From assembly GCF_030408855.1 (NCBI RefSeq), contig NZ_CP047358.1, forward strand, positions 1,550,001 through 1,614,000: a stretch of DNA of 64,000 bases. The letters are read 5' to 3'. The notes under the pieces were generated by a model. It was given only the letters and a program-made list of their open reading frames with translations, searched no databases and had not been told where the DNA came from. This document shows positions 48,673-60,564 of this stretch, one piece after another (within the stretch, counting starts at the first letter, position 1; every line of letters begins with the position of its first letter). Source of the DNA: Corynebacterium glaucum (lineage in GTDB: Bacteria > Actinomycetota > Actinomycetes > Mycobacteriales > Mycobacteriaceae). Position numbers and translations under genes: made by a program.

Positions 48673-50058
48673 CTACAGCAGCACTTGAGCAAGCAGCGAG
48701 CCGACCACGCAGGACGTGAACACGGAGATCGCACCTGGGACCAGGAACGAGTGGTTGATCACGTACTTGCCAATGCGGGTGGTGCCGGTGCGGTCGAAGC
48801 CGATGCACGCGAGGTCAGACGGGTAGGTCGGCAGGATCCAGTAACCGTATGCGGCGCCGTAGAAGCCGACGATCACCTTCGGGTCGATGCCTAGCGCAAG
48901 TCCGATCGGGGCGATGGCCACCAGCGCAGCTGCCTGCGAGTTCACCAGCTTGGACACGATCAGCAGCACGATCGCATATGCCCACGGCGCCTGCTCCACC
49001 ACCCCGCCAAGGGATGCCTCGAGCTGGTCGATGTGCGCGGCGAAGAACGTGTCCGCCATCCACGCCACACCGAACACGGAGAACACCGCAGTCATGCCCG
49101 CCTTGAACACCGGCGTGGAGGCGATCTTCTTGTGGTCCGTCTTGCAGAACAGCAAGATCATCGCGCCGGCGAAGAGCATCACCATCTGAATGGTGAGGTT
49201 CATGGACAACGGCTTGAGGTCGCCCGCATCGTCCGGCCACGCGGGACGCAGCGCTTCGAACGCGCCCAGCACAACCACGAACGCGATTGCGCCGAGGAAG
49301 ATCCACACCGAGTTGTACGCGGACTTCGGGAACTGCTCCCCCAGCAACGAGTGGCTCGACTTCTGGATCGACTCAGCAAACGTCGGGTCCTTCATGCGCT
49401 CCTGGAACACTGGATCATCTTCTAGATCCTTACCGCGGCGCAGCGACCACACGGCGGCAAGCAACACACCGCTCAGCGATGCCGGGATAGCCACCATCAG
49501 AATCTGCGGGATGGAGTAGGCCTGGTCGATCACGCCTGCGTTCTCCGCAAGGATCGACGCGAGCGACACGGTGGCCACCGACACCGGCGAGGCGGTAATA
49601 CCCATCTGCGCCGATGTGGAAGCCACCGCCATCGGCCGCTCCGGGCGGATGCCCTTCTTCAGCGCAATGTCTTCGATGATGGGAAACATGGTGTAGACCA
49701 CGTGGCCCGTGCCGCACAGCACGGTGAGAAACCACGTGGTCAGCGGTGCCAAAATCGTGATGCGTTCAGGACGCGCGCGGAGCACTTTCTCCGCCTGTTG
49801 CATCATCACCTCAAGGCCTCTGGCCTGCTGTAATGTCGCCGCGCAACCGATCACGGCGATGATGGTCAGCATCACTCCGACGGGAGGCTCACCCGGTTCG
49901 AGACCGAAGATGAACACCATGATCATCAGGCCGATGCCCGAGATCAGGCCGAGGCCGAGCCCGCCGTAGCGGGTACCCAGCAACAGGGCGCCGAGAATGA
50001 TGAGGATCTGCAGCACGATTGCGATCGTGGATGTGGGATCAAGTATTGATGCCAGCAT
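48673..50058 (-). CDS. Anaerobic C4-dicarboxylate transporter (DcuA/DcuB family)
   Basis: 461-aa integral membrane protein with about 10-12 hydrophobic segments. Sequences such as LAPLTTWFLTVLCGTGHVVYTMFPIIEDIALKKGIRPERPMAVASTSAQMGITASPVSVA are characteristic of Dcu antiporters, which exchange fumarate, malate or succinate. Because mqo is present elsewhere in the window, a role in malate or succinate export under low oxygen is plausible. I cannot distinguish DcuA from DcuB. Confidence 0.88.
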   Translation of the reverse strand: MLASILDPTSTIAIVLQILIILGALLLGTRYGGLGLGLISGIGLMIMVFIFGLEPGEPPVGVMLTIIAVIGCAATLQQARGLEVMMQQAEKVLRARPERITILAPLTTWFLTVLCGTGHVVYTMFPIIEDIALKKGIRPERPMAVASTSAQMGITASPVSVATVSLASILAENAGVIDQAYSIPQILMVAIPASLSGVLLAAVWSLRRGKDLEDDPVFQERMKDPTFAESIQKSSHSLLGEQFPKSAYNSVWIFLGAIAFVVVLGAFEALRPAWPDDAGDLKPLSMNLTIQMVMLFAGAMILLFCKTDHKKIASTPVFKAGMTAVFSVFGVAWMADTFFAAHIDQLEASLGGVVEQAPWAYAIVLLIVSKLVNSQAAALVAIAPIGLALGIDPKVIVGFYGAAYGYWILPTYPSDLACIGFDRTGTTRIGKYVINHSFLVPGAISVFTSCVVGSLLAQVLL

Positions 50059-50124
50059 GAGAACCCTTTCTTCTAGGTCATACCTAAAGGGTAGTTCTCA
50101 GCTTCTCCCCAGTTCCCGGCAATG

Positions 50125-51315
50125 TTAGGTGATTTCAACCACCCGCGTCGATCCGTACCAATCCAATCCCCGCGGCAACCCCGCGACCACGGCTTTGGTC
50201 GCCTCCACTACCGGCAGCGCAGTGCGGCCCCGGATAGTGAGTTTCACCACCGGCTCGGTGCTCGGCCGTCCCTCGCGCCGCTCGAATTCGGTCTCCAGCA
50301 TCGACGGCCCGAAGCACACATCCGCGCCGCGCTCCTCCCACTCGATGGAATCGACCAGGTAGCCAACCTTCCGCAGGTGCTTTCGCAAGTGCTTATCGAC
50401 GCCCCCTTGCACCCGCCCCAGCACATCCAGTTCCGTAATCACCTCGCGCGCATCAAGGGTGAATCGGTCTTCGTCGCTGAGCAAGCCGGCCGCTGCCGCC
50501 GCGTCAATGAGATCGGGGCGCACCGCCTTGGTGCGTTGCAAGGCCTCATCTCGCCGGAAGCGCGCCACCTTCGCGTGGTCACCCGAGGTAAGCACCGCCG
50601 GAGCCTCGATGCCGCGCCACACCCTCGGCTTGGTGTAGCTCGGCCCTTCCAAAAGCCCGTCGGAGAAGCTGTCCTCCTCGTGGGATTCGGTGTTGCCCAG
50701 CACTCCGGGGATGAGGCGCGTGACCGCCTCTGCGATGACGAGGACTGCCACTTCCCCGCCGATGAGCACGTAGTCGCCAATCGAAACCTCGCGCACTCGG
50801 TACCGCTGGGCCGCGTCGGTGAACACCCGCTGGTCAATGCCCTCGTAGCGCCCGCAGGCAAACACCAGGTGTGTCTCACGTGACCACGCGCGTGCCTGCG
50901 CCTGGGTGAACGGAACACCGGCCGGGGTGGGCACGATGAGCAGCGGCGCGTCTGGATCCTCACCCTTGCGCACGTCGCGCGACTCCGCATATGGCCGTGC
51001 GGCGACCTCCGAGACGTCGTCGTGGCGTAGCTTGTCGTTGCGGTGGGCAACGGAGGTGGTCAGGGCGGTGCCCGTGTGGCCGGCCGCGATGCTGTCCAGC
51101 GCGGATCCCCACACCTCCGGCTTCATCACCATGCCCGGTCCCCCGCCCAGCGGCGGCGCGTCTACCGACTTGTGCGCGCCGGTGGCCCAGTCGCGCAGGT
51201 CGTGCACGCCGACTTCCAGGATCCCCTGTTCGATCGCTTTGCCGAGGAGCGCATGCCGCAGCGGCTCGAGGTATTCCGGGAAGATGGTGACCGCGTCGAT
51301 CCGCATCACGCTCAC
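50125..51315 (-). CDS. trmD: tRNA (guanine-37-N1)-methyltransferase with C-terminal extension
   Basis: 396-aa TrmD, the SPOUT enzyme making m1G37 in tRNA. The trefoil-knot motifs FACGRYEGIDQRV and IGDYVLIGGEVAVLVIAEAVTRLIPGVLG are intact. Typical TrmD is 230-280 aa. Here the canonical C-terminus (SGDHAKVARFRRDEALQRTKAVRPDLI) is followed by about 105 extra residues (from about 292) with an alpha/beta look (HLRKVGYLVDSIEWEERGADVCF ... PVVKLTIRGRTALPVVEATKAVVAG). There is also a short insert around residues 100-118. GTGA overlap with rimM; an ATG three codons in is an alternative. Confidence 0.93.
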   Translation of the reverse strand: MSVMRIDAVTIFPEYLEPLRHALLGKAIEQGILEVGVHDLRDWATGAHKSVDAPPLGGGPGMVMKPEVWGSALDSIAAGHTGTALTTSVAHRNDKLRHDDVSEVAARPYAESRDVRKGEDPDAPLLIVPTPAGVPFTQAQARAWSRETHLVFACGRYEGIDQRVFTDAAQRYRVREVSIGDYVLIGGEVAVLVIAEAVTRLIPGVLGNTESHEEDSFSDGLLEGPSYTKPRVWRGIEAPAVLTSGDHAKVARFRRDEALQRTKAVRPDLIDAAAAAGLLSDEDRFTLDAREVITELDVLGRVQGGVDKHLRKHLRKVGYLVDSIEWEERGADVCFGPSMLETEFERREGRPSTEPVVKLTIRGRTALPVVEATKAVVAGLPRGLDWYGSTRVVEIT

Positions 51316-51812
51316 AGGTCAAGCAACCCCTCGGGCGGGGTGATTTCGAGGTAGCCCTCGTCTAGATCGATGTCTGGCACGATGTCGAGGACAAAGGGGA
51401 TGAGCACCTCGCGGCCCTCGTAGGCCACCTCCAAGATCTTGCGGTTCGGAGTGTCCATGACACCGGTGACCTCGCCGATCTCGGTACCGTCCAGGCGCAC
51501 CTTGAGACCGATGAGTTCGTGGTCGTAGTACTCGTCCGAATCCTCGTCGCGCTCCAGCGGTGAGGCGTAGAACTTCATCCCCCGCAACGAATCTGCGGCG
51601 GTGCGGTCCGGAACTTCCTCGAAACTCACCAACAGGCGCTTCTGGTGTGGGCGCACCGTCTTGATCGTCAGGTCCTGTTCTTTGCCCGCTTGCTTGCCGT
51701 GCAGCACCTCGTCGACGGCGAAGCGCGCTTCTGCTTCGTCGGTGAGCAGTTCGACGGCCACCTCGCCTTTAATACCGTGGGATTTCACCACCCGGCCGAT
51801 GAGCATTTCCAT
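51312..51812 (-). CDS. rimM: Ribosome maturation factor RimM
   Basis: 166-aa RimM, needed for 16S rRNA processing and S19 assembly. The N-terminal barrel begins LIGRVVKSHGIKGEVAVELLTD; the PRC-barrel half has YDHELIGLKVRLDGTEIGEVTGVMDTPNRKILEV. The start is ATG 51810-51812 (MEMLIG), with TAGCCT 8 nt upstream. It precedes trmD with a stop-start overlap. Normally rpsP is immediately upstream, but here a three-gene plus-strand cassette intervenes. Confidence 0.95.
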   Translation of the reverse strand: MEMLIGRVVKSHGIKGEVAVELLTDEAEARFAVDEVLHGKQAGKEQDLTIKTVRPHQKRLLVSFEEVPDRTAADSLRGMKFYASPLERDEDSDEYYDHELIGLKVRLDGTEIGEVTGVMDTPNRKILEVAYEGREVLIPFVLDIVPDIDLDEGYLEITPPEGLLDL

Positions 51813-51892
51813 GGGCAACAAGGCTACCAGCAGCACACGGCACCAAGATCACCCTTCCTGAGTCTGAGTTAAGGAAGGACTAAACTACAGCC

Positions 51893-54100
51893 GTGAATTA
51901 CTTTGAGCAGGTTTTCGAGTACATGGACGCTAACTACCAGAAAACGGTCATCCACTGGTGGCGCCCCGGCATGACATTGGAGGAGGCACACAAGGCAATT
52001 CGTGCGCTGCCAATCGACTCTGAAGGCTGGATAGAAAACCCGACGCAGCCTGAGCAAGAGGGGTGGAGACAGTACAGGCGGGGCGTCACCTTTATTCAGA
52101 TCCGCATGCGCGAACTGTTCGAAGGTTACGAGATTGAGCACGGCGATCCGTATTTCATCGGGTTGATGGGCCAGGGCGGCGTCGAGCGTGACTTCCTGCT
52201 GTGGCATGACGCAGAGCTTCGAGAAGAACTCATTTGGCCCCTGTTTTCTCTCGAAGGCACCCAGGTGGTCAGCTTCGCCAACATGGAGAAATACTCGTCG
52301 GGATGGGCGAGGCCGCTCGTCGCGCTGGTCGACGAGGGGATGCTCGACCGCGACCGCCTCTTGGACGAAATGCTTAAGGCGCTGAGCCGGGGTTTTCCCG
52401 CCTACCGAGTGCGCTGGTTTACCCAACACTACGAGGACTTTGCACCCACCGAAGCGGAAACTACTGCGCGCCAACACCTGCTTACTGCCGCCTTGGGTTC
52501 GGGAATTGGCTCCACGACCACGTTTGCGTTGAAACAGCTTTCGAGCTTGACCGAGTTGGATCAGGACGGATTTGTGGCCGCAGCCTCCCACGCCCTCGGC
52601 GGGACGAAGGCCACCGCCATAACCGCATTGAAAATGCTGGAGAAGATCGTATCTGAGCGCGACGATCTCGCTACAGAAATCGCCGATGCTGTTCAAACGG
52701 GTCTGTACCACTCACACGACGATGTGGTGCGCCGCAGCGCCAAGCTCCTTCACACGCTGGGCAACGGCGATCTTGTCGACGCCGCCAGCGACACACTCTC
52801 CCCCGCCATGGCACTCGAATTGCTGGGACACCGAAACTCCGAAGACACACCCGCTGCGGAAGCCGAGCACATTGAGGCCCAACCAGTGACACCGTGGACC
52901 GATGAAGACGCGCTGTTTCGCACCCGCGAACTGCTTGCATCCGAGGACGCGGTTGCCGTGACGCTGCTGGTGGCCTGGCTGGCGGAAACTGGCCCGCGCG
53001 CGTTGGAAATTCTCAAACCGGTGATACCAAAACACGAACCCCGGCAACATGACGGCGCTGTACGCTGGCTGTTGTTTCAATGCAACCGAACGCCCGCCGA
53101 AGTAGCAGAATCCAACGCGCCGTGGCGGCCAGATGACACTAGACGGGAATCGCTACTGCGGGTCGTTGCCATAGTGCACGGGCGGGCACCAACGCGAACA
53201 TTGCTTTCGACCCCAACGGATACTTTCGGCCGCGTGGACAATGAGGAGTTCGCGCGCCGCCTGGCTACTTATGCAAACCCGCAAGACATCTGGCAAGACG
53301 ACGCCATCCTCGCGCACCTGCGGCTGGTGGACTTTCAGGAAGACAGCACAGGTCTTGCGCCTGTCCAGGGCGTGCAAGCTGGGTGCCACAGGTTCCTGTG
53401 GAGCGCGCCCGAAGACCGATGTACAGAGTGCAATGAGAACCGCATTTGGGTACGCACCGCACAGGGATGGATAGGTCAAAATGCAAACCATGACGAGGCA
53501 CTCCCGTACCTTATTCGCAGCCCGTTCAGCGCAACCCATTTGGCGACTGAACGCGCTATTGTGGCTCCGAGCTGCTTGGACGCGTACACCTACGACATTG
53601 AGCGCGAACTCAATCCAAGAACTGAGAGCTACCCGGTAGTACTGAAGCCCGACATCGTTGACGTGCTTGCCTGGCACCCGGGTGAGTGGTCGCCGCATAC
53701 TGCCAGGTTCTTGGGCAAGGCTATGGCATACGATGATCCTGAAGTGCGCGCCGGCGCTGCAGAGCTTCTATCCACCAAGCTCGCTTCAGCGATCAGCGCG
53801 GAGGTCGCTGCACAAGAATGGGCACAGATCGAAGGCGTCATCCTCGGCCGTTGGGCGGCCTCGCTTGCAGATGCCGCCACGCTCAACCCAGTCTTCGTGC
53901 GCGATTTACTGACCTTCCTGCTGCCCCAGTTGGACCGAAAGACGCGCGACATTGCCAAACTCATTGAGCTGCTGCGCAATGTGCGCTTGCAGACCGGGCA
54001 GCGTGACGTCGACAAGCAACTGCTCGAGTGGCTGTCTGAATACAAGGGCAAGACGAAAGCTGCCACCGCAGCGGCCGCGATATTGAAGGAGGCCAAGTGA
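51893..54100 (+). CDS. DUF6493-like helical repeat protein, first of tandem pair
   Basis: 735-aa largely alpha-helical protein of unknown function. Residues 98-200 (VERDFLLWHDAELREELIWPLF, then LVDEGMLDRDRLLDEMLKALSRGFP...WFTQHY) resemble DUF6493-type proteins that, from memory, neighbour SWIM-finger genes in other actinobacteria. Helical HEAT-like repeats seem to follow (about 190-330 and 600-735). A Cys-bearing segment (GCHRFLW...CTECNEN) near residue 500 is absent from the second copy. GTG is preceded by TAAACT at 6 nt (leaderless). It overlaps the next gene by GTGA. No transmembrane segment or signal peptide, so cytoplasmic. Confidence 0.7.
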   Translation: MNYFEQVFEYMDANYQKTVIHWWRPGMTLEEAHKAIRALPIDSEGWIENPTQPEQEGWRQYRRGVTFIQIRMRELFEGYEIEHGDPYFIGLMGQGGVERDFLLWHDAELREELIWPLFSLEGTQVVSFANMEKYSSGWARPLVALVDEGMLDRDRLLDEMLKALSRGFPAYRVRWFTQHYEDFAPTEAETTARQHLLTAALGSGIGSTTTFALKQLSSLTELDQDGFVAAASHALGGTKATAITALKMLEKIVSERDDLATEIADAVQTGLYHSHDDVVRRSAKLLHTLGNGDLVDAASDTLSPAMALELLGHRNSEDTPAAEAEHIEAQPVTPWTDEDALFRTRELLASEDAVAVTLLVAWLAETGPRALEILKPVIPKHEPRQHDGAVRWLLFQCNRTPAEVAESNAPWRPDDTRRESLLRVVAIVHGRAPTRTLLSTPTDTFGRVDNEEFARRLATYANPQDIWQDDAILAHLRLVDFQEDSTGLAPVQGVQAGCHRFLWSAPEDRCTECNENRIWVRTAQGWIGQNANHDEALPYLIRSPFSATHLATERAIVAPSCLDAYTYDIERELNPRTESYPVVLKPDIVDVLAWHPGEWSPHTARFLGKAMAYDDPEVRAGAAELLSTKLASAISAEVAAQEWAQIEGVILGRWAASLADAATLNPVFVRDLLTFLLPQLDRKTRDIAKLIELLRNVRLQTGQRDVDKQLLEWLSEYKGKTKAATAAAAILKEAK

Positions 54101-56283
54101 CGTATTTTGATGAAATGTTCAAGGCATTCTCCCCCGGGTGGAGAACGTGGTACCAGCCGGGGATGACGCTGCGCGGCGCCTACGAGGCGGTCCAACAGAT
54201 CCCGATCAAGCGTGGCGCGGAGCGCTGGGATGGCCGCACTGGCAAGTCATTCTTTGAGCTGCGCCTGCGGGAAGTGTTCGAAGATTTCGAGATCGCGCAC
54301 GACGATGCTTATAGCGAACTTTTCATGAGCGAGTGGCGGTTCGAGCGCAACTTCCTTTTGTGGCACGACCCTGAGCTGCGGGAGGAACTCCTGTGGCAGT
54401 TGTTTTCATTTCCCGGCACCCCGCAGTCGAGCTTCGCGGCGCTTGAACCCGCCTACGACGCGGAACCTTACGACGGGCGCTGGTCTGAAACGCTCGTCGC
54501 CCTCGACACTGAAGGCCTAGTGGACCGCGACCGCCTGCTCGACGAGATGCTCGCCGCGCTCGGCCGCGGATTCACCCAGCACCGCAACAAGTGGTTCACC
54601 AAACACTTCGCCGACTTCAACCCCACGAAAGAGGAAGTCACCGCACGGCAGCGTTTGCTGTTTACCGCGCTGAGTTCAGGGGTGCCATCGAACGCTTCCT
54701 TTGCCATCAAGCAGCTCAAGCGGGTTTCAACACTTGACGACGACGCCTTTGTCACCGCAGCACCCCACGCCTTCGGCGCGTCCAAAGCCGCCGGAATCGA
54801 TGCGCTGAAGATGCTGGACCGGGTCGCATCAAGGCGCGAAGACCTACACGGTCAAGTTGCCGATGCCGCTGTGCACGCCCTGTACCACGTCGCGGATGCA
54901 GTCGTTCGTGATGCGGCGACGTTGCTGCGCAAACTCGACCGCGATGATTTGGTAGCTGCAAACGCAGACTCGCTGTCGCCCGTCATGGCGGCTGAACTTC
55001 TCGGCGACACCGCTGCTACTGATGCGGGTGGTGTGGAACTGCCGGCCCTGGACTACACCCCGCCTGAGGCAGAACCGGTCGTGCCCTTCACCGACGATAC
55101 CGCCCTGTTTCGCACCCGCGAGCTGTTTGCAAATGTGGACCCGGTAGGGGTGGAACTGCTGGTCGCGTGGCTGGCGCAGACCGGACCGCACGCAGTAGAC
55201 ATCCTCGCGCCGGCGATTCCGGATATGAATAACGGCAGCGGATTCGCAATGAAAACGCTGATCATGTGCCTTCCTTTAGAGGCGCTCAGTGTGCTCGAGT
55301 TCGGTGCCTCTTACGAAGGCGTCGGCTTTGACATTGACTGGATTAAACCAGCTGAACGGGTGCTCAGTGGCCACCTGCCCCCGCGCACAATGCTCTCTAC
55401 TCCTACGGACACCTTCGGGCGCGTGGACACTGCTGAGTTCCGCCGCCGGCTTGCCACATACTCCGACTCCCGCGACATCGACCCGGTGGATTACAGGCTC
55501 GCGTTAACCCGGTTGACTGAATTCGGTCCCGCCGAGGCAGATCAAGCCTCGGTGCCCGTCATCGCGCAGGCGCGGAAGTACGAACCGAGACACTACACGA
55601 CGGTAGAGCCGCAAGTACTGGGTGGCCACACGTTCCGACGCACCACCGACGGCTGGGACGCATTCGACACCGAAGAAGGATTCTGGATACGCGCACCGCG
55701 TAACCCATCTCGGTGGGACAATCCTGACCTCCCCGCGCGCGTGGCCATGCTGGCACCGAGCTGCATGGACTTCTACACCTACGCGTGGCTGGAGACGATG
55801 GTGGATTCCCAATACGCGGCCGAATATCACAGTGAATATGCCGTTGAGGTGCTGTCTTGGCATCCCGGAGAGTGGACATTCCACACTGCGGCGTTTCTTG
55901 GCCTCGCACTGCATGTGCCCGACCAAGGCACGCGTTCCCGGGCGGCGGAGCTCGTCGCAACGAGGCTTGCCCACTCCATCCCCGCAGCCACCGCGGCAGA
56001 GGCGTGGGCACAGTTCGACGAAATCAAGTTTGGCCGCTGGGCAACAGGGCTGACTGATGCCGCCACGCTGAACCCAACCTACGTCCGTGATCTCCTCGCA
56101 CAGCTGCTGCCCCGCCTAGACCACAAGGCACGTGACGTAGCCAAACTGATTGAGCTCTACCGCAATGTGCGAATTGAAACCGGAGCTCCAGAACTCGACG
56201 CGGCACTGCGCGAGTGGCTCGAAGGATTCAGCGGAAAATCGAAGGCAGCGCAGGCCGCGGCGGCGTTGCTCAAGGAGGCATAA
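54097..56283 (+). CDS. DUF6493-like helical repeat protein, second of tandem pair
   Basis: 728-aa full-length paralogue of the previous protein, collinear from start (YF..MF) to end (KAKDV/KARDVAKLIELYRNVRIETG...KSKAAQAAAALLKEA). Shared blocks include NFLLWHDPELREELLWQLF, GLVDRDRLLDEMLAALGRGF, FAIKQLKRVSTLDDDAFV, LLSTPTDTFGRVDTAEFRRRLATY and LSWHPGEWTFHTAAFLG. Identity looks like roughly half, so duplication is old. GTG start overlapping the first gene (GTGA), and its stop is directly followed by the SWIM-gene ATG. Unequal loops and the missing Cys cluster suggest the copies have separate roles, perhaps as a heterodimer. Confidence 0.7.
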   Translation: MTYFDEMFKAFSPGWRTWYQPGMTLRGAYEAVQQIPIKRGAERWDGRTGKSFFELRLREVFEDFEIAHDDAYSELFMSEWRFERNFLLWHDPELREELLWQLFSFPGTPQSSFAALEPAYDAEPYDGRWSETLVALDTEGLVDRDRLLDEMLAALGRGFTQHRNKWFTKHFADFNPTKEEVTARQRLLFTALSSGVPSNASFAIKQLKRVSTLDDDAFVTAAPHAFGASKAAGIDALKMLDRVASRREDLHGQVADAAVHALYHVADAVVRDAATLLRKLDRDDLVAANADSLSPVMAAELLGDTAATDAGGVELPALDYTPPEAEPVVPFTDDTALFRTRELFANVDPVGVELLVAWLAQTGPHAVDILAPAIPDMNNGSGFAMKTLIMCLPLEALSVLEFGASYEGVGFDIDWIKPAERVLSGHLPPRTMLSTPTDTFGRVDTAEFRRRLATYSDSRDIDPVDYRLALTRLTEFGPAEADQASVPVIAQARKYEPRHYTTVEPQVLGGHTFRRTTDGWDAFDTEEGFWIRAPRNPSRWDNPDLPARVAMLAPSCMDFYTYAWLETMVDSQYAAEYHSEYAVEVLSWHPGEWTFHTAAFLGLALHVPDQGTRSRAAELVATRLAHSIPAATAAEAWAQFDEIKFGRWATGLTDAATLNPTYVRDLLAQLLPRLDHKARDVAKLIELYRNVRIETGAPELDAALREWLEGFSGKSKAAQAAAALLKEA

Positions 56284-57624
56284 ATGCAATACACCTACGC
56301 CCATCCGTCCACCCTGACTGACCAGGGCCTGCAGCTGGCCACCAGTGGTGGCACGCTCGACCGGGTGGACGAGCCGCACTTCTTCAGTGGCTTCGTGGAA
56401 AACCCCCACATCGTCGCTCGCGGGATGCTCACCGTCGCTGACTACGCCGCGAAACGCTTCTACACGCCGGTGAACACCGTAGCGATCGCGGCGCTTGACC
56501 CGGTGGTCACCTCCACCCCGGAAAGCCTCCGGTTCGAATCATTCTCCGGCTGCTGCAGCGCATACGCTCGCCTGGATGTCACCGACCTTGACGCTGAATC
56601 CCAACAGTCCGGCGTGACCAATGTGGACATCAACATTCCGCTGCGTGAGGCGTTGGCAGGTGTCACACCGGGTGCGCCGCTGCACCTCAACGTTGCCGAT
56701 GACGCACTCAACGTCACCACCATGGACAACACCCTGGAAGAAAAGAAGGTGAAACTGCCGCTGCGGTGGGTCAAAGGCCTTGCCGAATCGCAGCGCATCA
56801 GCGCCTCAATGACGCTGCAGCAGGAGCTCCCGGGGCCGCAGGCGAAGAAGTTCATCACGTCGTTGCCCGGGGCATCCTCGCCCAAAGCCGTGATGTGGGC
56901 AACGCCCGCGTTGCGCAGTTTGCGGCTGGCTTCGAAGCCGTCGCCAGGCGCGGTGTGCTTAGCAGGCCCGGAGCGCCTCAAGCCCATCATCCCGCTGCTG
57001 CCGTACGTAACCAAGTTGTCGGCCTACAGCGCCGACACTTCCGCATCGTCCGAGCCGCAATCATCCGCGTGGGTGTTCGAGCTACCTGGTGCGCGTTTCA
57101 CTGTGGTGATCAGTCCGATCAAAACCCGGGGATTTTCCGGCGAGGGTTCCCTTTTAATGTCGCTGAGCAGCGAGCACGCAGCCGATGACGCAGACTTGGT
57201 CTCCGCGGTGCTGGCGTTTGATCCGCGCATTGACATCAATGACCTCGCGGCGCAGACTGGACTCACGCCGGCCCGCGTTGAGGATGCGCTCCAAGTGCTC
57301 GCATCCACGGGCCAGGTCGGCTACGACCTCACCCTGGGGTCGTATTTCCACCGCCCGCTACCGCTCGACCCGGGCGTGGTAGGCAAGCTCAACACCCGCC
57401 TCGCCAACGCTGACGAGCTTTTGGCAAAGAACGCCGTCACCCCACTCGATGGGCAGGAAGACGCATTCACGGTGCGCTCCGGCTCCAACGAATACACGGT
57501 GAAACTCGACGACGACACCTACGCGTTTGCATGCACCTGTTTCTGGTTTGCCAAACACAAGGACACACGTGGCCCATGCAAGCACGTGCTGGCTGCGCGG
57601 GCGTTTCGGGATCGCGCGCAGTAG
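56284..57624 (+). CDS. SWIM zinc-finger protein with winged-helix-like segment
   Basis: 446-aa protein ending in a SWIM zinc finger of form CxCx(n)CxH: C417-T-C419, then C432-K-H434, with the typical FACTC...GPCKHVLAAR context. SWIM fingers bind DNA or protein. Residues about 300-350 (DPRIDINDLAAQTGLTPARVEDALQVLASTGQVGYDL) look like a winged helix. The N-terminal 280 residues have no family I recognise; the start YTYAHPSTLTDQGLQLAT is typical of SWIM proteins in such clusters. ATG begins directly after the preceding stop (no gap). It ends at a terminator shared with rpsP. Confidence 0.78.
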   Translation: MQYTYAHPSTLTDQGLQLATSGGTLDRVDEPHFFSGFVENPHIVARGMLTVADYAAKRFYTPVNTVAIAALDPVVTSTPESLRFESFSGCCSAYARLDVTDLDAESQQSGVTNVDINIPLREALAGVTPGAPLHLNVADDALNVTTMDNTLEEKKVKLPLRWVKGLAESQRISASMTLQQELPGPQAKKFITSLPGASSPKAVMWATPALRSLRLASKPSPGAVCLAGPERLKPIIPLLPYVTKLSAYSADTSASSEPQSSAWVFELPGARFTVVISPIKTRGFSGEGSLLMSLSSEHAADDADLVSAVLAFDPRIDINDLAAQTGLTPARVEDALQVLASTGQVGYDLTLGSYFHRPLPLDPGVVGKLNTRLANADELLAKNAVTPLDGQEDAFTVRSGSNEYTVKLDDDTYAFACTCFWFAKHKDTRGPCKHVLAARAFRDRAQ

Positions 57625-57628
57625 GAGC

Positions 57629-57639
57629 CGTCGACAAGC
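57629..57639 (+). repeat. Dispersed 11-mer CGTCGACAAGC, intergenic copy
   Basis: C-form copy of the dispersed 11-mer, placed 5 bp after the SWIM-gene stop and 4 bp before the terminator stem. Together with the copy at 45864 it shows that both non-coding copies abut terminators. Confidence 0.8.
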
Positions 57640-57643
57640 AAAA

Positions 57644-57666
57644 TGCCCAGCGAAAACCGCTGGGCA
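57644..57666. terminator. Bidirectional terminator between SWIM gene and rpsP
   Basis: TGCCCAGCG, loop AAAAC, CGCTGGGCA: a perfect 9-bp stem between two convergent genes. Confidence 0.85.
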
Positions 57667-57690
57667 CTGTGCGAATGAGGTGCGAGAGGG

Positions 57691-58242
57691 TTAGTTGTCC
57701 TCGGACTCCGCTGCTGCGTCGTCCTCGGCGACTGCCTCAGCCTCAGCTGCATCCTCTGCAGCCTCAACGTCGGTGGACTCGCCCGCAGCCTCAGCTGCCT
57801 CTGCAGCTTCAGCAGCGGCAGCCTCAGCAGCAGCCTTCGCCTCTGCGTCTTCCTTCGCCTTCTTGCGCTTCTCGGTGATGGCCTCTGCGGACGGGCCGTT
57901 GTTGGCTTCCTCCAGCGCCTGGTTGAACAGGTCAAGCTTGCTCGGCTTCTCCTCGGCCACCTTCAGGGTGCCCTCAGCGCCAGCCTCGCCCTTGAACTTC
58001 TGCCAATCGCCGGTGATCTTCAGCAGCTTCTCCACCGGCTCGGTCGGCTGCGCGCCGACGCCCAGCCAGTACTGGGCACGCTCGGAGTCAATGCGGATGA
58101 GCGACGGCTCTTCCTTCGGGTGGTAGATGCCGATGTTTTCGATGTAGCGGCCATCGCGGCGGGTGCGCGCATCAGCAATCACCACGCGGTACTGCGCGTT
58201 CCGGATCTTGCCAAGGCGCTGCAGCTTGATCTTTACAGCCAT
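57691..58242 (-). CDS. rpsP: 30S ribosomal protein S16 with long acidic tail
   Basis: 183-aa S16. The first 80 residues are the conserved protein ([56 protein letters not shown]). About 100 extra residues follow, Ala/Glu/Asp-rich ([20 protein letters not shown]...), likely disordered. ATG 58240-58242 is set by the family start; an upstream GTG is spurious. Normally it would begin the rpsP-rimM-trmD-rplS operon; here it has its own terminator and no downstream partner. Confidence 0.96.
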
Positions 58243-58449
58243 GAGTCTTTTCCTTACGGTCACTGGGTAGTTCAGGCATTCATCGCTTTTCGACGAACCG
58301 GTTCAACCCTTTGGATTAACCTGCGCGTGACTGGCCGGCCGAGCGTACTCGAATCCGGCGCATACGCAGTGTGCATATCGCAACCTTTGACACTCTAGCG
58401 TGGTCTCTGCGTTGGCTCCAAAACGCGCGTGGAGGTAACCTCAGGCCCC

Positions 58450-60564
58450 ATGAACTTAGCAGTGCCTGACAAAAAGGGTGCGTCCGTGTACCGATACGAC
58501 CTTGACGGCCTGCGCGGCTTCGCCATCGCACTGGTGGTGTTCTTCCACGTGTTCGTTGGGAGGGTCTCGGGCGGCGTCGATGTTTTCCTGCTGCTCTCTG
58601 GGTACTTCTTCCTGGGCAGCCAAGTCCGCTACGCGCTTCGCCCAAACCCGTCACTCAACCCGTTTTGGCCGTTCTGGCGCACCGCACGCCGCCTCGTTCC
58701 AGCACTTGCCGTGGTGCTGGTGGCCGCGCTGCTGGGTGTGATGTTCTTCGTGCCGGAGCTGATGACAACCGAGCTGGTAAACCAGTTCGTTGCATCCATC
58801 CTCTATTGCCAGAACTGGATGCTCAGCCGCCAAGATGCCGCCTACGCCGCAGCCGGCGTGGAAACCTCTCCGCTGCAGCACCTGTGGTCCATGAGTGTGC
58901 AGGGGCAGTTCTACTTCTGTGCGATCGTGCTTGGACTCATCATCGCCATTGCAGTGAGCAAGCTCCGCGTCGATGCCCAAAAGGCCCGCTCGGTCACCAT
59001 CGGAGTGCTCACGGTTATCACCATTGCGTCGTTTCTATATGCATCGCGCTTCGGAATTGTGGGCACGCCGAGCAACTACTACTCGATCTTCTCGCGTATG
59101 TGGGAGATGACCCTCGGCGGAATCTTGGCTCTGATCCCGCGCGGTATCACCTTGCCACAGCGGTACTCGGCGGCTGCCACCGGCCTTGGCATGGTAATGA
59201 TCGCAATTACCGGCGTGATCATTCCGACTTCACTGGCCTTCCCCGGCCCGCTCACCTTGTTACCGCTTACCGGTGCGATGCTGGTGATTCTCAGCTCCCC
59301 CACGAACGCAGTTTCACAGTTGCTCTCGTCCCCGCCATTCCAATGGCTGGGAAAGAGCGCGTATTCGCTCTATCTCTGGCACTGGCCGCTGCTGATCATC
59401 TCTACCGCCGTCGGTGGGTACGACACCCCTCCAGTCTGGCTCGGTGTCGCGGTCATCACGGCATCGTTGGTGCTTGCTCATCTCACCCACACCTTCGTGG
59501 AGGAGCCACTGCGTCAACACGGCCCAAGACCACGCGCCATGGACAAACCGGTTTCGAACGCGCGAGAGAGCCTACGGACTCCCGCTGGCCGTGGCCGTCT
59601 GGCCGGCGGAATCGCCGTCAGTTTGCTGGTTGTTTCCACGCTCGCCGTTAAGCCGTATTGGGGCGGCCAGATTGACGACGCTGCGAAGCCGCTCGATCCC
59701 GCGACCCATCCTGGCGCCCGCGTCCTACTGGGAGCGGAAGCACCCGACGTGGAAGCGCTCCCCGACCCCGATCTCATCGCCGGTATCTTCCCGCCGATTG
59801 GCGACGGCTGCATGGTCTACCTGCCCGAAGGGCCGGAAGATTTCGTGTCCGACGAATGCGTCTACGGCGACCGCGAAGCAGAAACCACCGTCGTCCTCGC
59901 TGGTGGCTCCCACGTTGAGCCGCTCGGTATTCCGCTCGATGAGCTTGGCCAGCAACACGGGTTCAAGGTCATCCCGTACGTGCGCCAAGAGTGCCCGATC
60001 ATGCTGGGCGACTTCGAAGACGACACAGTGAGCGACGTGTGCCGTGAATGGTCGATAAACGCCTTCGATCGGATCATAGAACTGGATCCAGACCTGGTGA
60101 TCTCCACCTCGACCCGCCCGGCAGGTCATGCCGGCGCGGCGGTCATGACCCAGGACATGGTTCCGGACGGTTACCTCGGCTTCTGGGAGGCGCTGCGCGA
60201 GAACAACATCCCGTTTTTGGGACTGCGCGACAACCCATGGATCTTCGACGGTGCCGGCGACCCCATGGATCCCAACTACTGCCTGAGCGCAGGCGAGGCG
60301 TTCGAAGACTGCTCTATGCCACGTGAACTCGTCTACGAGCCGGTAGACCCAGCCTCCGAATATCTCGATGGCACCGACGGCATGTTCAGCGTCGACTCCT
60401 CAGATTGGTACTGCATTGGCGACACGTGCCCGCCCGCAATCGGCAACGTGTACATCTACCGCGACCAGAACCACCTCTCGAACGCGTACTCAGAGTCGCT
60501 CGCGCCCGTGATGTGGGAAGTGATCAAGCCGATTCTCGACGAGTTGCGGGTGCCCCACACTTAG
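58450..60564 (+). CDS. Membrane acyltransferase 3 with C-terminal SGNH domain (OafA/YrhL-like)
   Basis: About 704-aa protein. Residues 15-360 form the acyltransferase-3 domain: YDLDGLRGFAIALVVFFHVF with its His, then about ten transmembrane helices. A linker follows, then an SGNH-type extracytoplasmic domain (about residues 480-700) with GGSHVEPLG, where the usual GDSH is GGSH, and the late catalytic pair RDQNHLS (Asp, His). These enzymes O-acetylate cell-surface glycans or lipids. GGAGGT precedes the ATG by 13 nt. It shares TTAG at the stop with convergent ffh, with no terminator between. Confidence 0.85.
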   Translation: MNLAVPDKKGASVYRYDLDGLRGFAIALVVFFHVFVGRVSGGVDVFLLLSGYFFLGSQVRYALRPNPSLNPFWPFWRTARRLVPALAVVLVAALLGVMFFVPELMTTELVNQFVASILYCQNWMLSRQDAAYAAAGVETSPLQHLWSMSVQGQFYFCAIVLGLIIAIAVSKLRVDAQKARSVTIGVLTVITIASFLYASRFGIVGTPSNYYSIFSRMWEMTLGGILALIPRGITLPQRYSAAATGLGMVMIAITGVIIPTSLAFPGPLTLLPLTGAMLVILSSPTNAVSQLLSSPPFQWLGKSAYSLYLWHWPLLIISTAVGGYDTPPVWLGVAVITASLVLAHLTHTFVEEPLRQHGPRPRAMDKPVSNARESLRTPAGRGRLAGGIAVSLLVVSTLAVKPYWGGQIDDAAKPLDPATHPGARVLLGAEAPDVEALPDPDLIAGIFPPIGDGCMVYLPEGPEDFVSDECVYGDREAETTVVLAGGSHVEPLGIPLDELGQQHGFKVIPYVRQECPIMLGDFEDDTVSDVCREWSINAFDRIIELDPDLVISTSTRPAGHAGAAVMTQDMVPDGYLGFWEALRENNIPFLGLRDNPWIFDGAGDPMDPNYCLSAGEAFEDCSMPRELVYEPVDPASEYLDGTDGMFSVDSSDWYCIGDTCPPAIGNVYIYRDQNHLSNAYSESLAPVMWEVIKPILDELRVPHT

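Follow-up and report, generated by a model that had tools for sequence, protein, structure and literature searches.

Type XIII retrons comprise a reverse transcriptase (RT), an ARM protein, and a winged-helix SWIM protein. A SWIM-finger protein is likewise found in the Escherichia coli yeh locus (yehI, yehL, yehM, yehP, yehQ), which also has MoxR and vWA genes. We compared both systems with a three-gene cassette on the plus strand of Corynebacterium glaucum (contig NZ_CP047358.1, positions 1,550,001 to 1,614,000); this stretch of 64,000 nucleotides is referred to as the window, and unlabeled coordinates are positions within it. The cassette encodes DUF6493 protein a (51893-54100; 735 amino acids), DUF6493 protein b (54097-56283; 728 amino acids), and a SWIM protein (56284-57624; 446 amino acids). 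We tentatively favor the reading, to which we give slightly less than an even chance, that the cassette is an RT-less relative of the type XIII retron protein module, whose accessory clamp and DUF6493 solenoid would form a complex surveying DNA.

The third gene provides the link to retrons. PADLOC assigned its product to SWIM_XIII (E value 1.1e-46, with the strongest part of the match at model positions 279-501 of 509), and hhalign tied the retron SWIM proteins to that of the window over residues 71-446 (probability 99.9%), a span that includes clamp-region sequence, the winged helix, and the finger. In 398 genomes sampled from the phylum to which one Achromobacter genome belongs, the SWIM_XIII model matched five: three near-full, the Achromobacter genome itself, and one weak partial. 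An RT gene follows the SWIM gene in all three near-full cases; PADLOC identified WGR_XIII in all three and, for the two loci whose RT and SWIM proteins were scanned, RT_XIII and SWIM_XIII. As in the cassette, the retron SWIM protein is adjoined by a large protein, which in the retrons also matches PADLOC HEAT-ARM models. The window cassette differs in that no RT was found beside it, and its flanking gaps of 56 and 66 bases leave little room for an msr-msd. A profile of the three type XIII RTs matched the three retron loci only, with no RT-like open reading frame (ORF) at E ≤ 1e-4 in the window, in the 83 SWIM loci described below, or in 27 further regions. The retron SWIM proteins (L158-L160) also carry 64 additional residues in the clamp region that are missing from the RT-less family, from which they differ at CC and RGFSGEG motifs. 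PADLOC gave no match at E ≤ 1 for either DUF6493 protein of the window, and none of nine DUF6493 relatives matched a type XIII model. An Rfam scan of 50000-59000, in a database that may lack the type XIII RNA, returned a match at E ≤ 1 only at 50707-50767, weak and unrelated. The SWIM_XIII model also matches one of the 14 control genomes, that of Methanosarcina acetivorans, so an archaeal relative may exist. In passages of PMC8628076, matches to "WGR" are instances of wGRR, and the terms XIII, SWIM, ARM, and armadillo were not found in the text of PMC12548924.

The SWIM finger region (57463-57618; residues 394-445) matches PF04434 at 19.7 bits, barely above the cut-off of 19.6, and in an alignment of 63 relatives the SWIM family was matched at E ≤ 10 in 63/63 members. 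All four finger residues (C417, C419, C432, H434) are invariant across these members, bearing out the CxC...CxH finger that the original prediction had recognized. The same prediction had suspected a winged helix, and this also appears right: the region at 57166-57333 (approximately residues 295-350) has weak matches to HTH_24, DprA_WH, and HTH_PafC, all below their own cut-offs, and contains helices and strands in the predicted model. Ahead of it, residues 32-280 (56377-57123) form, in a predicted monomer model, a two-domain clamp fold covering the PCNA chain. On this modeling, the gene 3 product is predicted to fold like the archaeal and eukaryotic sliding clamp PCNA, from which it differs in being bacterial and in its additional C-terminal winged helix and SWIM finger. 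The structural matches to PCNA show 6-13% identity among those listed. The best local alignment pairs SWIM residues 75-149 with PCNA 29-106, seemingly in the expected register as judged by the secondary structure of PCNA. PCNA families are absent among the 25 listed of the 29 Pfam families matched by the 63 SWIM members.

To place the cassette among its relatives, we performed a SWIM alignment search with one genome per species, retaining the best 80 of 582 relatives and adding three plasmid loci to give 83. A DUF6493 profile match was found in 82 of these, and a stricter rule (same strand, within 500 bp of the SWIM gene) left a partner in 80/83. Because the profile was seeded in part from SWIM neighbors, further checks of the pairing matter. 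Of 57 neighbor seeds, 56 fall in one homology component with the window DUF6493 proteins, and a DUF6493 annotation is present on all three plasmid records (Diaphorobacter, Streptomyces, Asticcacaulis). In a separate sample of 396 actinobacterial genomes, whose species may overlap with the main survey, SWIM matched nine (the window, one weak partial, and seven full or near-full), and the profile found an adjacent DUF6493 in 7/7 of the full or near-full loci. PF20103 matched five of the 396 genomes, three above cut-off, all SWIM-positive and with the match beside the SWIM gene; it missed three of the seven full or near-full loci. Homologues of the large proteins thus do occur with the SWIM gene, as the original grouping implied. 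SWIM usually precedes DUF6493, and among the 80 adjacent loci only four, each from Corynebacterium, show the reverse order; the plasmid pairs, in which the same two families adjoin, follow the usual order and differ in this from the DUF6493-DUF6493-SWIM arrangement of the window. A 4-base overlap occurs in 9/83 loci (using longest-ORF starts) and two DUF6493 ORFs in 11/83, and no third gene family recurs beside the 83 loci in more than three genera. As SWIM plus DUF6493 is the usual form, nothing seems to be missing from the cassette.

Across 745 columns, the large proteins share 45% identity, and both pass the PF20103 cut-off of 25 bits (50.4 for a, 65.6 for b, the match spanning profile positions 169-292 of 317 only), so their proposed paralogy holds. 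Their description as large and helical is likewise sound if taken to mean helical-repeat proteins: protein a is one by family, and an AlphaFold2 model of protein b (mean predicted local distance difference test 85.5) predicts a helical solenoid interrupted around residues 489-523 by a small insert of strands. Placement of the large proteins in a characterized metabolic family would have told against the original prediction; no such family scored above cut-off when the window proteins were searched against Pfam and NCBIfam. Protein a is 70-74% identical to the single DUF6493 copy of four relatives, and protein b 51-52% identical to the same copies. A tree of 40 DUF6493 proteins, in which several rows are longest ORFs extending upstream over SWIM (e.g., L008, L009, L021) and the long Asticcacaulis row is unsure in its placement, separates two groups, and one protein of each group is found in operons of Achromobacter, Diaphorobacter, Nocardioides, Propionicimonas, Buchananella, and Rothia. 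Both window copies belong to the shorter-protein group, where copy a clusters with the lone DUF6493 proteins of related Corynebacterium and copy b branches before them. Judged by sequence, copy a is the orthologue of the single DUF6493 gene in related Corynebacterium cassettes, and copy b is an extra paralogue.

We next considered presence, loss, and selection. SWIM matches were found in 22/201 genomes of the genus (window included), three of which have weak partials only. In the window, the cassette lies between rimM (51312-51836, minus strand) and rpsP (57691-58263, minus strand), in a neighborhood whose usual gene order is ffh-rpsP-rimM-trmD. Across eight rimM regions compared, the cassette is beside rimM in five. 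A genome labeled as the same species (G178) has 677 bases at the cassette site (L133:8592-9268), and its DNA identity to the window is 94.7% on the rimM side and 87.8% on the other side; an ORF of approximately 190 amino acids in this insert reads as a membrane protein. At the rimM-rpsP site, G060 has only decayed SWIM fragments (L134:7642-7862) and G055 has nothing of the cassette; each has a SWIM gene elsewhere in its genome. Against four relatives, the ratio of nonsynonymous to synonymous substitution rates (dN/dS) was 0.07-0.15 for SWIM; for the DUF6493 genes it was 0.16-0.19 (first) and 0.23-0.27 (second, compared with the relatives' single copy). All three ORFs are under purifying selection. 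GC composition gave no island signal at the cassette. In another genome, the complete rimM gene is accompanied, approximately 10 kb away and beyond the cassette, by partial second rimM matches (G035:C1:115371-115583), perhaps left by an insertion at rimM. We also examined a diverged Corynebacterium SWIM group in 11 loci (L141-L151): in five, an adjoining large protein has a weak DUF6493-profile match, and in two more the adjoining protein is related to those five by BLASTP. One diverged SWIM gene lies approximately 2.4 kb from a tmRNA gene (L151:11441-11821, G163), a common integration site.

Taken together, the predicted fold, the winged-helix region, and kinship with retrons suggest that SWIM and DUF6493 probably form a DNA-acting complex, and the DNA association put forward in the original prediction is plausibly right. 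Mechanistically, a PCNA-like clamp protein would work with one or two ARM/HEAT-like DUF6493 solenoids. The clamp may grip DNA or a replication intermediate, singly or as a ring, with the winged helix and finger supplying DNA or protein contacts, and DUF6493 may dock on the clamp and sense or recruit a target. Such a complex would keep watch on DNA that is foreign or being replicated, and type XIII retrons would represent forms in which this clamp is controlled by RT and multicopy single-stranded DNA (msDNA). Anti-phage or anti-plasmid defense is a possible role, and repair or genome maintenance a rather doubtful one. A bolder proposal, which we regard as speculative and somewhat unlikely, is that bacteria have a mobile and self-contained sentinel, based on a PCNA-fold clamp distinct from their beta clamp, in which SWIM and DUF6493 jointly mark or attack foreign or stalled DNA, and that type XIII retrons arose by adding an RT-msDNA sensor to this older clamp module. 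If the fold prediction is true, bacteria possess a PCNA-type clamp that lies outside replication, is joined to a winged helix and a zinc finger, and has moved between phyla together with a helical partner. It would also provide a structural hypothesis for the SWIM subunit of type XIII retrons, allow one set of experiments to test both the cassette and these retrons, and offer a first functional lead for DUF6493 and for the many proteins whose only name at present is "SWIM zinc finger family protein."

Several results weigh against the surveying-clamp reading. The hhalign comparison with PCNA profiles was not significant (probability 0.43% and 0.08%), and positive charge on the four presumed ring-lining helices was not clearly enriched, random placements attaining it in 10.6% of cases. 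Homology between DUF6493 and WGR_XIII was not shown (hhalign probability 21.6%). Defense genes were not enriched near the cassette (118 near versus 118 far proteins), and no relative was found among viral contigs. The pairing has exceptions: L042, on a 5-kb contig, has no DUF6493 partner; in L037 the DUF6493 gene is 4 kb from SWIM on the other strand; in Gordonia amarae (L017, 11439-13032) DUF6493 is on the opposite strand in two overlapping pieces and may be a broken gene; and four of the 11 diverged loci (L144, at a contig end, L146, L149, and L151) have no recognized adjacent partner. The charge test, the lack of defense neighbors, and the still hypothetical ring, for which the models are of monomers, keep our confidence tempered.

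The unenriched flanks, the predicted PCNA-like fold, and the strong constraint on SWIM would also suit genome maintenance, in which a specialized clamp, serving processivity or a checkpoint in the manner of PCNA or 9-1-1, recruits host repair enzymes with DUF6493 as an adaptor and has no part in defense. We consider this somewhat improbable: presence is patchy within the genus and the phylum (22/201 and 9/396, weak partials and the window included), the cassette is decayed or absent at the same site, the family has spread between phyla, and it is kin to a retron component, all of which an accessory conflict module fits better than core repair. The clamp fold could instead serve only as a protein scaffold, with SWIM and DUF6493 assembling for proteostasis or regulation and never encircling DNA. 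Contacts with proteins can also be made through SWIM fingers, the presumed ring lining is not clearly positive, and domain 2 of the model seemingly has fewer strands than PCNA; the fused winged helix (by weak matches) and the occurrence of the family in RT-containing retron loci argue the other way, and we find a scaffold unlikely.

Tight coupling of the genes in most loci and kinship with a retron type would fit a toxin-antitoxin-like pair along the lines proposed for retron effectors, with one protein poisonous to the cell and its partner holding it back; PMC12548924 describes retrons as keeping a toxic effector in check. We regard such a pair as improbable, since no toxin or nuclease family scored above cut-off for the window proteins in Pfam or NCBIfam (a ParD-antitoxin match, E value 0.031, was far below cut-off) and PADLOC yielded SWIM_XIII only. 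The original prediction suspected a minimal MoxR/vWA/SWIM cluster without its ATPase, and the yeh locus does combine a SWIM protein with large proteins of unknown function. This idea now seems very improbable. YehQ aligns with the window SWIM protein at the finger only (probability 2.8%), with no relation seen beyond it, and YehI shows no relation to DUF6493 (0.13%), both having been compared as single sequences, which weakens the two comparisons. The 83 loci have no third family recurring in more than three genera, and a scan limited to the nine ORFs flanking the cassette returned neither MoxR nor vWA at E ≤ 0.001. The text of PMC7159879, which treats MoxR-vWA systems, has 0 occurrences of SWIM.

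ORF coordinates confirmed the coupling proposed for the cassette: genes 1 and 2 share the four bases GTGA (54097-54100), and the TAA stop of gene 2 (56281-56283) is followed directly by the ATG of gene 3 at 56284. The single shared terminator proposed with it was not borne out. The sole terminator-like hairpin 3' of gene 3, at 57642-57668, carries a minus-strand T-run and is retained in the cassette-less genome (L133, G178), so it more likely belongs to rpsP than to the cassette; a scan of the region found 8 terminator-like hairpins versus 6.1 expected. Between rpsP and ffh, the window also contains an acyltransferase-3/SGNH gene (58429-60564), another insertion in this neighborhood.
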